This document shows positions 4,495-36,431 of a DNA stretch of 37,837 nucleotides, piece by piece (position 1 is the stretch's first letter; each line of letters opens with the position of its first letter). The notes below the pieces were generated by a model. The model worked only from the letters and a program-made list of their open reading frames with translations, made no database searches and was not told the DNA's origin. The stretch comes from a virus. The stretch spans positions 1 through 37,837 of IMG/VR virus record IMGVR_UViG_3300022707_001498; one strand, written 5' to 3'. Both the position numbers and the translations under genes were made by a program.

Positions 4495-5045
4495 GCAATA
4501 TTAATGATTTCATACGAGCCGAGGCACCAGCTGTTGAATTTATTTCTGACGCTTCTGCCTCGAACGATGCAAATATAGATTTTACTTTGCCTGCTGGGTT
4601 CGATGAATACGAAATCAGGATGTTAAATATTGTTGCAGCAACAGATGATGCTCCTTTTCATCTTCGAACTTCTACTGATGGGGGATCATCTTTTGATTCT
4701 GGCGCATCAGATTATATCTGGTCTGTTCTTTCAGCGGCCGAAAGTACTGCTAGTGTGAGTTCCAGCACTGGGGATACTCAAATTGTTTTGAGTGGAGGAA
4801 TTGGAGACGCTGTATCGCAAGCATTTTCGGGACTTATAAGAATTGTAAGGCCTGCTGAGGCAACCGAAACAATGGTATATGGAACTTCGGGTTATGCTAA
4901 TTCTAGTGTGACGCCTAAAGCGACATTTGGTGGTTCAATGGGTCAGAGACAGAGTGCGGCTGATGTGGATGCTGTACGCTTTCTGTTTAGTTCAGGGAAC
5001 ATAGTTTCAGGACTTTTCGCGCTGTATGGGGTGAATAGAACATGA
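4491..5045 (+). CDS. Putative tail fibre/tip protein, unknown
   Basis: Start chosen at ATG 4491 (protein MSNINDF...), which overlaps the previous stop as ATGA; an upstream in-frame Met at 4431 would sit deep in the previous gene. The 184 residues include IDFTLPAGFDEYEIRMLNI and LRTSTDGGSSFDSGASDY, a pattern seen in phage structural proteins of the beta-sandwich type with a repeated-unit look. No catalytic residues are evident. It is translationally coupled to both neighbours. Confidence 0.6.
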   Translation: MSNINDFIRAEAPAVEFISDASASNDANIDFTLPAGFDEYEIRMLNIVAATDDAPFHLRTSTDGGSSFDSGASDYIWSVLSAAESTASVSSSTGDTQIVLSGGIGDAVSQAFSGLIRIVRPAEATETMVYGTSGYANSSVTPKATFGGSMGQRQSAADVDAVRFLFSSGNIVSGLFALYGVNRT

Positions 5046-5380
5046 GAACTGGTCAACTAAATGGTGTGAAATACAATTATTCTGCTTCCCAGGAGACTGC
5101 GCGAGATGCTGAGGAAGCTGCTTTTGATCCCAATGCTAAAACAGCGAAAAGAAATCAGATTAGAATCGCTCTTATTGATCTGGGTAAGTTAGGCCAGGTA
5201 AAAACATTCTTGTCTGGCCTGTCGAACTCCGAAGACGATCAAAAAATTGTGGAATATTGGACTAGTCGAGATATATTCCATATTGATGACGCCGAGGTTA
5301 CATCTGTAACGGTGGGATTGGGGTACGGCGACCCTGAAAAAATAACCCTATTTAATGCAGCATCACAAATTGAGCAATAG
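5042..5380 (+). CDS. Small tail-region protein, unknown
   Basis: The 112-residue protein starts by ATGA overlap with the upstream fibre-like gene. It is predicted mainly alpha-helical in the first 80 residues (ETARDAEEAAFDPNAKTAKRNQIRIALIDLG), then ends in a short beta-type segment. A role as fibre chaperone is possible from its position directly after a fibre-like gene, but nothing in the sequence proves it. Confidence 0.55.
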   Translation: MRTGQLNGVKYNYSASQETARDAEEAAFDPNAKTAKRNQIRIALIDLGKLGQVKTFLSGLSNSEDDQKIVEYWTSRDIFHIDDAEVTSVTVGLGYGDPEKITLFNAASQIEQ

Positions 5381-5382
5381 CC

Positions 5383-5607
5383 ATGAAGAAACTATTACCG
5401 GTGATCTTTCTAGTCTTTATCTCTGGCTGTGCCGAGGTCAATGCCCTCCGGAAGTCAGTTGGGCTCTATGGCGCTGATGCTGCCGACCAGGCATTAGATA
5501 CTGCGATATACACTCTCTGCGTAGGATCGACAGTTGGGGCTATTGATCGGAGATTCAAGACAGAGGAAGAAAGGGCTGCCTATCGTTCCATCTGCCCTGC
5601 CCCATGA
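5383..5607 (+). CDS. Small outer-membrane-type lipoprotein
   Basis: The 74-residue protein has a short Lys-rich start (MKKLL), a hydrophobic core and a lipobox FISGC at residues 12-16, so Cys16 would be lipidated. The mature part is about 58 residues with three more Cys. It lies between tail genes and the endolysin, a usual place for Rz1-like spanin subunits, but it lacks the Pro-rich stretch of Rz1. I therefore call it a lipoprotein of the lysis region without assigning spanin function. Confidence 0.65.
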   Translation: MKKLLPVIFLVFISGCAEVNALRKSVGLYGADAADQALDTAIYTLCVGSTVGAIDRRFKTEEERAAYRSICPAP

Positions 5608-5621
5608 TATGACAAATCCTT

Positions 5622-21674: not shown

Positions 21675-21814
21675 AGCAGTAGTCTGCTGATGGGGCTGTC
21701 CCGGCCACAAGGAAGAAGTAGGGATTTGGACAATCACTGAATAGGGTAGTACATAATCGATAGAGACTAGTGGGGATGCTCCTAAGGTCTAAATGATAGT
21801 TATGGGAGAAAACA
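21675..21814 (+). other. Leader region before the YopX gene, hairpin-rich
   Basis: The region has no gene. AGCAG-TAGT-CTGCT (21675-21688) is a clean hairpin, and AGAC.../...GTCT around 21762-21790 can pair. Its end (GACTAGT, then GTTATGGG, then AAAACA-ATG) resembles the end of the long noncoding region before the YopX gene at 32852, so both YopX copies may have inherited the same leader. Confidence 0.4.
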
Positions 21815-22240
21815 ATGCGAGAGATTAAATTCAGGGCCTGGGATAGAGCGACCAACTCAATGGTGACCGAATCATGGAAGTTATTTTTAAATGGTTGTGT
21901 GAGCATTCAAGACACTTGGGCAACTAGCGATGTTCACTTAATGCAATTCACCGGACTCAAGGATAAGAACGGCAAGGAGATATTCGAGGGGGATATATTG
22001 GCTCACATGAGCACTCGCAGAGCAGGCTATGAAAAAGATGGTGACACGATTTACAAAAAAATTGTCTTTGGTAGATCAAATCCTCAATGTAACTCGGTAA
22101 CTGATTACATGGGATTTTGGGCTGTTTCTCTCGGCGATGATGACCTTTCATGCGGCGGGTCAATAGGATATCAAACCAAAAGCCTTGGAGCAGTGGTAAT
22201 CGGCAACATCCACGAGAACCCAGAACTTCTACAGAAGTAA
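21815..22240 (+). CDS. YopX-family protein
   Basis: The 141-residue protein has the YopX pattern: MREIKFRAWDRATNSMV, then HLMQFTGLKDKNGKEIFEGDI near residue 60, then GAVVIGNIHENPEL at the end. YopX proteins are frequent in phages; their function is not known. It is a close paralogue of the protein at 32852 (shared SWKLFLNG.VSI.DTWAT.DVHLMQ). Confidence 0.88.
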   Translation: MREIKFRAWDRATNSMVTESWKLFLNGCVSIQDTWATSDVHLMQFTGLKDKNGKEIFEGDILAHMSTRRAGYEKDGDTIYKKIVFGRSNPQCNSVTDYMGFWAVSLGDDDLSCGGSIGYQTKSLGAVVIGNIHENPELLQK

Positions 22241-31794: not shown

Positions 31795-31976
31795 ACATTC
31801 AAGAGATATTGACTAAAGCTGTCATTCAATCGAAAGAGGTTGAGAGAATGCTTGTTGATGCAGCTAACCAGGAAATCCCGGCACCACCGGTGGTAGATCC
31901 TATCCAAGCTGAGGAAGACGAATGGCTCGAGCCGTTGCGCCTGGGCGGGACAATCATCTTGAGGGATAGTTTATGA
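31791..31976 (+). CDS. Small acidic hypothetical protein
   Basis: The 61-residue protein MNIQEILTKAVIQSKEVERMLVDA... then QEIPAPPVVDPIQAEEDEWLEPL. It is coupled to both neighbours by 4-nt overlaps and directly precedes the Acb2-like gene. Unknown function. Confidence 0.55.
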   Translation: MNIQEILTKAVIQSKEVERMLVDAANQEIPAPPVVDPIQAEEDEWLEPLRLGGTIILRDSL

Positions 31977-32227
31977 AAAACCAGCATGAACAAATTAAGG
32001 GCTATCGTGATCTGCGCCAGGAAGAAATCGACCTAATGAATGAGATCAAGGAGATGGCCAGTAAAGTCGAAGAGCTTATCGAAAAAATGGGACACATGAA
32101 TTACGGTGAATCAAAAATTGATCCAGAGTTGTGCCCTAACGCGCGATGGCTTGCAATTGGGAGGACTGACCTGCAGACAGGATTCATGGCGTTAGTCCGG
32201 AGCGTGGCAAAGCCGACAAGTTTTTAA
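31973..32227 (+). CDS. acb2: Acb2-type anti-CBASS cyclic-nucleotide sponge
   Basis: The 84-residue protein is a helical hairpin with the family pattern: IKGYRDLRQEEIDLMNEIKE at residues 8-27, then ARWLAIGRTDLQTGFMALVR and SVAKPTSF at the end. Tyr11 and Lys26 match the numbering I remember for the residues that contact cyclic GMP-AMP in the Pseudomonas phage Acb2. The family binds cyclic di- and trinucleotides and blocks CBASS. It sits between small phage genes and the tRNA-Leu, in an accessory block. The call rests on pattern and memory, not on a search. Confidence 0.82.
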   Translation: MKNQHEQIKGYRDLRQEEIDLMNEIKEMASKVEELIEKMGHMNYGESKIDPELCPNARWLAIGRTDLQTGFMALVRSVAKPTSF

Positions 32228-32235
32228 AGAATTAC

Positions 32236-32321
32236 GCCGGTGTGGCGAAATTGGTAAACGCAAGGGACTTAAACTCCCTAGGCTATTTGCCTTGCTGGTT
32301 CGATCCCAGCCTCCGATACCA
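32236..32321 (+). tRNA. tRNA-Leu (anticodon TAA), with a weak acceptor stem
   Basis: Class II layout: D arm GCG...CGC, anticodon stem AGGGA/TCCCT with loop CTTAAAC (anticodon TAA), variable arm GGC-TATTT-GCC, T arm GCTGG-TTCGATC-CCAGC and an encoded CCA end. The acceptor stem is poorly paired: GCCGGTG against CTCCGAT gives only four Watson-Crick pairs and one G-T pair out of seven. The gene may therefore be defective or be folded together with the long RNA behind it. Confidence 0.85.
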
Positions 32322-32329
32322 CATAACCA

Positions 32330-32845
32330 TAGAGAGAACTCGGGGGTCAGTTAGATCGGTATTCGCCGGCGACAGATCCGAGACAGGGATAACCCGCCGA
32401 TTAATATTCGGAAAGGGAGCTAGAGCAAGACCGGCTGGGAGGAATACCCGCCTGGAGATGCTAAGAGCAAGCCCTAAATAGGTTTGTGCTATGGGAGGAT
32501 ACCCCTACTAAAGAGTAATAAGGCTACTCTCCCGGAGAGCCTGGCCTCGAGTAGGATGACGCGACATTCTATGCTGACGGCCGAAATCAGTAGCGCAGAG
32601 GAAACCAAATTCTAGAATGGTGAAATCTGAGCAACGCTAAACCGGGAGATACTAATACCTGGCCCTGGAGGGCACTACGCGAGAGCCGTAGCCGATGTAG
32701 TAAGGCTCCAATCCCGCAAGGGAGAAGAAACAGGGGGATGGCTCTATCGGCGAGCTACCCCAGATGGAGTGATCAATATAGATCATATTTGATCAGCCGC
32801 GGAATCGACTAGTAAGATACCAGTAACTTATGGGCAACCGAGTAG
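32330..32845 (+). ncRNA. Large structured noncoding RNA candidate downstream of tRNA-Leu (GOLLD/ROOL-like setting)
   Basis: About 510 nt without a gene hold many compatible stems. The whole region can be closed by ACTCGG (32338-32343) with CCGAGT (32838-32843). Inside: CCGGC(T)GGG with CCCGCC(T)GG (32431-32455); GGCT(A)CTCT with GGAGAGCC (32522-32541); TAGCG(CAG) with CTG..CGCTA (32591-32639); GCCC-TGGA-GGGC (32662-32673); CTACG/CGTAG (32675-32691); TCCC-GCAA-GGGA with a GNRA loop (32712-32723); a 4+4-bp stem 32734-32761; and a 10-bp TGATCAATAT hairpin at 32770-32795. Location beside a phage tRNA is as for GOLLD and ROOL RNAs, but I see no sequence proof of either family. Confidence 0.6.
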
Positions 32846-32851
32846 AAACAA

Positions 32852-33226
32852 ATGTCAGAACAGCGTGAAATCAAGTTCAGGGCTTGGGATAAAGCCACAA
32901 ATTCAATGGTCAAGGATTCCTGGAAATTATTTCTAAATGGTACAGTTAGCATTGCCGACACTTGGGCGACCGGAGATGTTCACTTAATGCAATACACCGG
33001 ACTCAAGGACCAGAACGGCGTCGAGATTTATGAAGGTGACATAATCCAAGACCCAGACCACGGGCCGGCATCTAATTGCATTATTAAATATGAGGAAGGG
33101 GCGTTTTTTGCTGGTGCAATAGATTCAATAGATGGAGATGATGGGTTAGCCTCAGAATATGCACCATCAGCAGTCGTAATCGGTAACATCCACGAACACC
33201 CTGAATTAGTGGTGAAGACAGCATGA
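32852..33226 (+). CDS. YopX-family protein, paralogue
   Basis: The 124-residue protein has REIKFRAWDKATNSMV, HLMQYTGLKDQNGVEIYEGDI and AVVIGNIHEHPELV. It is close to the copy at 21815 and starts directly after the long noncoding region, and it overlaps the next YopX gene by ATGA. Confidence 0.88.
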   Translation: MSEQREIKFRAWDKATNSMVKDSWKLFLNGTVSIADTWATGDVHLMQYTGLKDQNGVEIYEGDIIQDPDHGPASNCIIKYEEGAFFAGAIDSIDGDDGLASEYAPSAVVIGNIHEHPELVVKTA

Positions 33227-33579
33227 GAGATAGTGAGATTAAGTTTAGAGCTTGGGATATTGAAAGCCCTGCAATGCTTTCTTATGAAGAGTGTATTGAC
33301 GAGTGGGAATGTGGGGAATTCTGGTTTGATGCCCTTTTTCGGCAAGATCATTACCATTGCATGATGTTCACCGGCTTCAAGGATAAGAACGGCAAGGAAG
33401 TCTATTACGATGACATCTACAGAGATAGTTTCGGCCCTGTTGGATGCAACCTATTAGTAACAGAACTGACTGTAGCTCATTGGCTTATTGCTGAAGACAA
33501 GATGAATACACCAATGGAACGAATAGAAATCATAGGCAACCGCTGGGAGCATCCCGAACTACTGGGGAAGGCAGCATGA
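33223..33579 (+). CDS. YopX-family protein, second diverged copy
   Basis: The 118-residue protein has SEIKFRAWDIESPAMLSYEE, then MMFTGFKDKNGKEVYYDDIY and IIGNRWEHPELLGK. It is less similar to the other two YopX proteins, so it is an older duplicate or a separate acquisition. ATGA overlaps on both sides show tight coupling. Confidence 0.85.
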   Translation: MRDSEIKFRAWDIESPAMLSYEECIDEWECGEFWFDALFRQDHYHCMMFTGFKDKNGKEVYYDDIYRDSFGPVGCNLLVTELTVAHWLIAEDKMNTPMERIEIIGNRWEHPELLGKAA

Positions 33580-35210: not shown

Positions 35211-36415
35211 CAGAGCAACAACATATAGAAATTGCCACGCCCAGATGGGCCCTACCTTTTTTGGCTCCATCAGCCTTTAAGGGCGCCAAAGGCGGAAGAT
35301 CCGGAGGCAAGTCACACTTCTTTGCAGAACGTGCTATAGAGTGCCACATCTGTGATCCGAGCTTTTCAACAGCCTGTATCCGCGAAGTACAAAAATCCCT
35401 GAAATTTTCCATGAAGCGCCTGCTTGAGCAGAAGATACGAAAGCTTGGTGTATCTCATCTGTTCGACGTGCAGCATGATCAGATAAAGCGCAGAGGAGGT
35501 ACAGGTGTAATAATTTTTGAGGGCATGAAGGACCATAACGCCGAATCAATAAAGTCACTTGAAGACTTCGATTTGGCTCTGGTTGAAGAAGCGAGGAATA
35601 TTTCTCAGCGTTCTTTAGACCTGCTTACACCGACATTCAGGAAAGATGGATCAGAAATATGGTTTATCTGGAATCCAGATCAGGACAACGACCCTGTTGA
35701 TGTATTTTTCTCAAGCGCAGACCCAGAGGACAAGGATTTCATCCAGGTTCACGTCAATTACATGGATAACCCGTTCTGTCCGGACAAAGCGAAGAGTGAC
35801 GCGGCCAGATGGCTAAAGAGAGATCCTGAAAGCTATGATCATGTATGGCTAGGGGGATACAACACTAAATCAGACGATCAAGTGCTATCTGGTGTGTGGT
35901 CTGTCGATGAAATTGAGATAGACGATACTTGGGATGGGCCGTATTTCGGCGGTGACTGGGGTTTCTCTGTAGATCCGGCCACGGTTATCAAGGTATGGAT
36001 AAAGGGGAATATCTTATACGTCGAAAAAGAAATCTATGAGCACGGGGTAGAAATCGATGACACTCCTAAGTTTTACGATGGCATGCCAGGTGCCAAAGAG
36101 CATGTCGTTCGCGCTGATTCTGCCAGACCGGAAATAATTAGCTATATGAAGCGGAACAAATATCCCAAGGTTACTTCTGTCAAGAAATGGGATGGGAGTG
36201 TAGCGGACGGCATCAGTAAACTCAGGAGTTTCGACATTGTAATCAATCCTGCATGTGACCATACGATTGAGGAAGCGAGGCTTTGGAAGTATAAGCGGGA
36301 TAGGCTTACTGGCGATGTTTTGCCCAAATTGGTTGACGCTAACAACCACTGCTGGGATGCGATACGATACGCCATCGAGCCCCTAATCAAGAGAGGTGTG
36401 GAATGGCATGCCTAA
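35207..36415 (+). CDS. Terminase large subunit
   Basis: GTG start at 35207 overlaps the TerS stop. The 402-residue protein has Walker A GGRSGGKS (about 29-36), Walker B FDLALVEEA (about 121-129) with catalytic Glu, and coupling motif IWFIWNPDQDNDPVD. The RNase-H-like nuclease domain starts about residue 245 (GGDWGFSVDPAT) and ends with a CWDAIRYAIEP segment. It resembles the PBSX/Terminase_3 family. It drives ATP-dependent headful or cos packaging; which one cannot be read here. Confidence 0.92.
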   Translation: MTEQQHIEIATPRWALPFLAPSAFKGAKGGRSGGKSHFFAERAIECHICDPSFSTACIREVQKSLKFSMKRLLEQKIRKLGVSHLFDVQHDQIKRRGGTGVIIFEGMKDHNAESIKSLEDFDLALVEEARNISQRSLDLLTPTFRKDGSEIWFIWNPDQDNDPVDVFFSSADPEDKDFIQVHVNYMDNPFCPDKAKSDAARWLKRDPESYDHVWLGGYNTKSDDQVLSGVWSVDEIEIDDTWDGPYFGGDWGFSVDPATVIKVWIKGNILYVEKEIYEHGVEIDDTPKFYDGMPGAKEHVVRADSARPEIISYMKRNKYPKVTSVKKWDGSVADGISKLRSFDIVINPACDHTIEEARLWKYKRDRLTGDVLPKLVDANNHCWDAIRYAIEPLIKRGVEWHA

Positions 36416-36431
36416 ACCTGGAGATTCACTT

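Follow-up and report, generated by a model that had tools for sequence, protein, structure and literature searches.

The window analysed, the whole stretch of 37,837 bases, is an IMG/VR virus record with tail genes on the left and terS, terL and the portal gene on the right; its bacterial-genome relatives were found in Gammaproteobacteria. On the plus strand, an Acb2 gene and a tRNA gene precede a block at 32322–32851 that is followed by two yopX genes, with terS lying 1.8 kb beyond the block. The features of the locus are as follows.

31973–32227, plus strand: Acb2/Tad1-hairpin gene (PF24729, E 2e-18)
32236–32321, plus strand: intact tRNA-Leu(UAA) gene (ARAGORN; Rfam RF00005, 50.5 bits)
32338–32843, plus strand: candidate large structured noncoding RNA of about 506 nt, bounded by helix P1 (absence of a coding signal, fold z, composition)
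32852–33226, plus strand: yopX, the first gene 3′ of the block (PF09643, 6.9e-25)
33223–33579, plus strand: the following yopX gene

The tRNA and the Acb2-like gene that the sequence-only reading had placed upstream of the block were therefore both recovered, and the tRNA-Leu(UAA) is probably its co-transcribed upstream neighbour. The Acb2/Tad1-hairpin product, of the anti-CBASS sponge family, is short (84 aa) and 72% identical to a protein of the relative L064. Both the tRNA and the block are absent from two Acb2-carrying relatives, L064 and L078, the latter sharing Acb2 and terminase with the record, which indicates that the block lies in variable DNA. The leaders of two yopX genes, at 21795–21815 and 32829–32851, both contain TTATGGG and a stretch resembling GAGAAAACA/GTAGAAACAA ahead of the ATG, and it looks as though a leader piece was copied along with the gene.

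No ORF of at least 50 aa was found in 32482–32808 on either strand, and the sole longer frame in the block region, of 79 aa, starts inside the tRNA. The period-3 signal of the block was 1.23, within the shuffle range of 0.32–2.08, compared with 4.0–8.7 for four flanking genes. The earlier description of 32322–32851 as gene-free thus held, both by ORF content and by codon periodicity. The block consists of 31% A, 22% C, 29% G and 18% U, with 51% G+C, and none of the 7,218 other 530-nt windows of the record, both strands included, combined U of at most 17.9% with GC of at least 51%; this low-U/high-GC composition is strand-specific and unique within the record. Internal repeats were mostly near chance level.

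The whole block folded with -176.8 kcal/mol on the plus strand (z -3.36), an energy reached by 1 of 600 dinucleotide shuffles, and the plus strand folded better than the minus strand (z -2.30, 10 of 600 shuffles). The following elements of the fold were predicted.

32338–32343 (ACUCGG) with 32838–32843 (CCGAGU), plus strand: terminal helix P1, 6 bp (pair probability 0.90)
32356–32370 with 32796–32808, plus strand: long-range helix (pair probability 0.55–0.66)
32416–32421 with 32704–32709, plus strand: long-range helix GGAGCU/GGCUCC, closing the central domain (p 0.66)
32528–32649, plus strand: core domain, the most stable one (helix probabilities 0.92–1.00)
32712–32723, plus strand: UCCC-GCAA-GGGA hairpin with a GNRA tetraloop (p 0.96)
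32734–32761, plus strand: 10-bp hairpin with a bulged A (p 0.85–0.95)

For two segments that were picked after the fold had been seen, z was -2.84 (central domain, 32416–32709) and -4.19 (core, 0 of 200 shuffles equally stable). In the core, three elements lie within an 8-bp helix, UCUCCCGG/CCGGGAGA: an 8-bp hairpin with the loop ACGCGA, a 4x4 internal loop rich in purines, and a hairpin whose loop, AUUCUAGAAU, is palindromic; as about 0.5 palindromes of 10 nt are expected in 530 nt by our estimate, palindromic loops are taken as a hint only. Ten local hairpins had a pair probability of at least 0.6, the GCAA hairpin and the 10-bp stem among them, in agreement with the at least eight that had been proposed from the letters. 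The end-to-end helix of 6 bp proposed at the same time is likewise there, but it is unremarkable against chance, as 58 of 500 shuffles contained an equally long helix, and P1 is not significant alone. In a 250-nt scan of the whole record the block ranked among the top but not first, and several coding windows had equal or lower z; the block is thus not set apart by its fold energy alone. The case for a structured RNA therefore rests on a combination of evidence, in which fold energy supports, and does not prove, an RNA.

Based on the lack of a coding signal, the position next to a tRNA, the unusual composition and a fold beyond that of shuffles, we favour, with a probability of about 0.62, the reading that the block is a large (~506 nt) plus-strand structured noncoding RNA gene, which works like the GOLLD, ROOL and ICP1 RNAs and has no described sequence family. 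Against it stand the lack of a homologue, hence of covariation support, the failure to recognise any promoter- or terminator-like site on the plus strand, a fold energy that other parts of the genome match, and the relative L078, which has neither tRNA nor block between Acb2 and terminase.

The main rival of the RNA-gene reading is that the block acts in cis, as a long structured 5′ leader controlling yopX, in which P1 hides a ribosome-binding GAG and unfolding or binding opens it. The only Shine-Dalgarno-like GAG, a weak one at 32840–32842, indeed forms part of P1 on its 3′ strand, 9 nt before the start, its unpaired probability is 0.10–0.12 with the whole block folded, and the block ends 8 nt ahead of the start codon. 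However, the GAG was still mostly paired (unpaired ~0.2) when the last 50–150 nt were folded alone, so that 500 nt are not needed to hide it. Further, a second yopX copy, at 21815, is equipped with a clean GGGAG, and nothing significantly similar to the block was found elsewhere in the record. We consider a cis-acting leader unlikely.

Similarly improbable, in our view, is that the block gives no functional RNA at all and is a decayed gene, a DNA-level site for recombination, packaging or replication, or a neutral sequence with a chance fold. A fold energy that some coding windows also reach and the non-significant terminal helix would suit this explanation, and so would the orphan state of the sequence. 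When the block was searched by blastn at E≤10 against 50,697 records of phages and 72,556 of plasmids, nothing beyond 4–8% chance matches was obtained, and with the tRNA included the matches were confined to the tRNA part. Four IMG/VR pattern scans, whose motifs allowed for changes in the stems, gave matches whose contexts look coding, none of which extends to the block. The block was also unmatched in the loci of relatives collected via terminase, YopX and Acb2 and in 90 whole related virus records, and no homologue was found in 369 gammaproteobacterial genomes searched by DNA and by R1, a single-sequence covariance model of the core domain. In 1.6 Mb of loci, R1 recovered itself and one weak match at 36305–36424 of the record (E 0.11), taken as chance. 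Records lying very close to this one may have been outside the reach of all these searches. On the other hand, the composition and the combined fold statistics argue against a sequence without RNA function, no protein-coding remains, iterons or AT-rich origin-like stretch were seen in the block, and with terS 1.8 kb further on, a pac site is not obviously placed in it.

A terminase relative, L257, carries a gene-free block of ~700 nt at 4910–5621, just upstream of terS, with a fold z of -3.5 on the plus (coding) strand, as against -1.0 on the minus strand, for which neither an Rfam family nor a homologue in phages was found. Like the tRNA-adjacent block it is gene-free and folds stably, whereas it has no tRNA neighbour, and the two showed no significant similarity, as 5 of 60 shuffles reached their best local score. 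A gap sequence shared by L240, L249 and L274 was considered as a giant RNA and rejected, being a small Cro-like gene followed in two of them by a terminator structure. Downstream of a Cro-like gene, L240 (2800–2925) and L274 (1485–1600) have a conserved stem-loop region that ends in a T-run terminator and contains a GCAA-loop hairpin and a GGCGG/CCGCC pairing; in appearance it is a structured phage RNA of small size.

GOLLD and ROOL assemble into cages made of RNA alone, whose function is unknown, and many GOLLD members are longer than 800 nt, unlike the ~506-nt block. The location of these RNAs, in a phage and next to a tRNA, is also that of the block, where the tRNA-Leu ends at 32321 and P1 starts at 32338. 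ROOL is ~500–600 nt long, phage-borne, often near tRNAs and folded into many helices (PMC12286853), which the block resembles, and GOLLD is likewise phage-borne and often near tRNAs, GOLLD env-38 lying downstream of a Met-tRNA (PMC12286853). However, among the 4,227 families of Rfam 15, only RF00005 (tRNA) reached its gathering score in the record, and the block itself gave just two short sub-threshold matches (E 2.6 and 8.1). The ROOL model (RF03087; gathering score 99.1 bits) did not match the block at E≤10, a search of unproven sensitivity, as 14 control genomes gave no match either. The GOLLD model (RF02032; gathering score 150 bits) likewise found nothing in the record at E≤10, and the weak matches that it gave below the cut-off in 5 control genomes demonstrate no more than a working search. 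ROOL is further defined by an octameric cage in cryo-EM, and both kinds of RNA by a secondary structure backed by covariation. Membership in GOLLD or ROOL, which the sequence-only reading had suggested from size and setting, was thus not borne out; what stands of its giant-RNA interpretation is a gene-free, probably structured noncoding block of ~506 nt beside a tRNA. RNase P, a group I or II intron and tmRNA were rejected as identities for the block, with no support from Rfam or ARAGORN. That the block is a GOLLD, ROOL or other registered large RNA, too divergent for the Rfam models to detect, would agree with its size and tRNA neighbourhood and with the strong variation of parts of the ROOL and GOLLD sequences between members (PMC12286853), but as neither ROOL nor GOLLD nor any other large-RNA family matched at E≤10, this is very unlikely.

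The ~800-nt noncoding RNA of Vibrio phage ICP1, proven by RNA-seq and the most abundant transcript of the phage (PMC7567579), served as a yardstick. Its locus matches no Rfam family and has a fold z of -2.2 (20 shuffles), weaker than that of the tRNA-adjacent block. Patchy blastn matches revealed relatives in at least eight Vibrio phages (henriette 12B8, 11895-B1, eugene 12A10, 1.121.O, 424E50-1, 1.193.O, 355E48.1 and F98), and Shewanella phage 1/4 gave one short match. The loci of this family are the following.

L283, 20098–21108, minus strand
L284, 1001–2291
L285, 1011–1912
L286, 1329–2286
L287, 464–1841
L288, 453–1600
L289, 186–1570
L290, L291 and L292

In eugene 12A10, 424E50-1 and 1.193.O (L286, L288 and L289) the RNA is located 3′ of same-strand tRNAs, and in henriette directly 5′ of terL; its modules are rearranged, lost or inserted from phage to phage. 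A 3′ module is common to six of these RNAs, in which 13 of 26 pairs were changed on both sides with 96% of cells paired. Against a covariation score of 0.538 for this module, shuffles gave 0.200 (0 of 500) and slid controls 0.149 at most, although the slid control leans in its favour because these six sequences had also supplied the structure. A covariance model of the 3′ module, R2, recovered the ICP1 RNA, L285, L287, L288, L289, L291 and L292. These results indicate that the ICP1-type RNAs are an unregistered, strongly covarying mosaic family of large phage noncoding RNAs, a firmer result than that on the block; our literature search found no description of this family.

The ICP1-type RNAs resemble the block in being large and gene-free, in occurring in gammaproteobacterial phages, in lying directly 3′ of tRNAs in three relatives and in having no Rfam family. 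They differ from it in being longer and richer in U (25–32% vs. 18%), and the terminator-like hairpin and T-run at the end of the ICP1 region have no counterpart in the block. A divergent member of this mosaic family would share the tRNA-then-RNA layout and the gammaproteobacterial-type phage, its sequence matches could be patchy through module shuffling, and one weak local similarity to module D was found at 32550–32588 (E 0.56). However, nhmmer searches with whole members gave no match to the block at E≤10, and R2, which finds members, did not recover the block in the record even with filters off. By sequence and module comparison the block is not detectably a member, and such a divergent origin appears highly improbable.

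The tRNA-then-RNA layout thus recurs for real phage RNAs, as the three ICP1 relatives show. Under the RNA-gene reading we infer the following course of events for the block. It would be transcribed with the tRNA-Leu as one operon, and 3′ processing of the tRNA would set the 5′ end of the block RNA and cut it free. P1 would then close the molecule, and the nested long-range helices would give it a compact fold. Most speculatively, the RNA might serve as a scaffold during lytic growth, and loop-loop contacts of its palindromic loops might join it into a multimer, as in GOLLD and ROOL. A rather unlikely but more novel proposal is that with the block a new homo-oligomeric class of large ornate phage RNAs has been seen for the first time, one that has no sequence relationship to GOLLD, ROOL or the ICP1-type RNAs.

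The block is a credible orphan structured RNA. If it does represent a new ornate class, giant tRNA-adjacent RNAs would have originated more than once in phages, or else have diverged until they can no longer be recognised. Should the place behind phage tRNAs be occupied time and again by unrelated sequences, that place, with its tRNA co-transcription and processing, would be a handle on the function of these RNAs. The ICP1-type family occurs in culturable Vibrio phages, including the well-studied ICP1 with its abundant RNA (PMC7567579), which makes its function directly testable.

In F98 (L292, 164–1526) and 424E50-1 (L288, 599–1566), the public annotation places many tiny 'hypothetical proteins' across the noncoding RNA region, and annotation of this kind may hide such RNAs in phage records.
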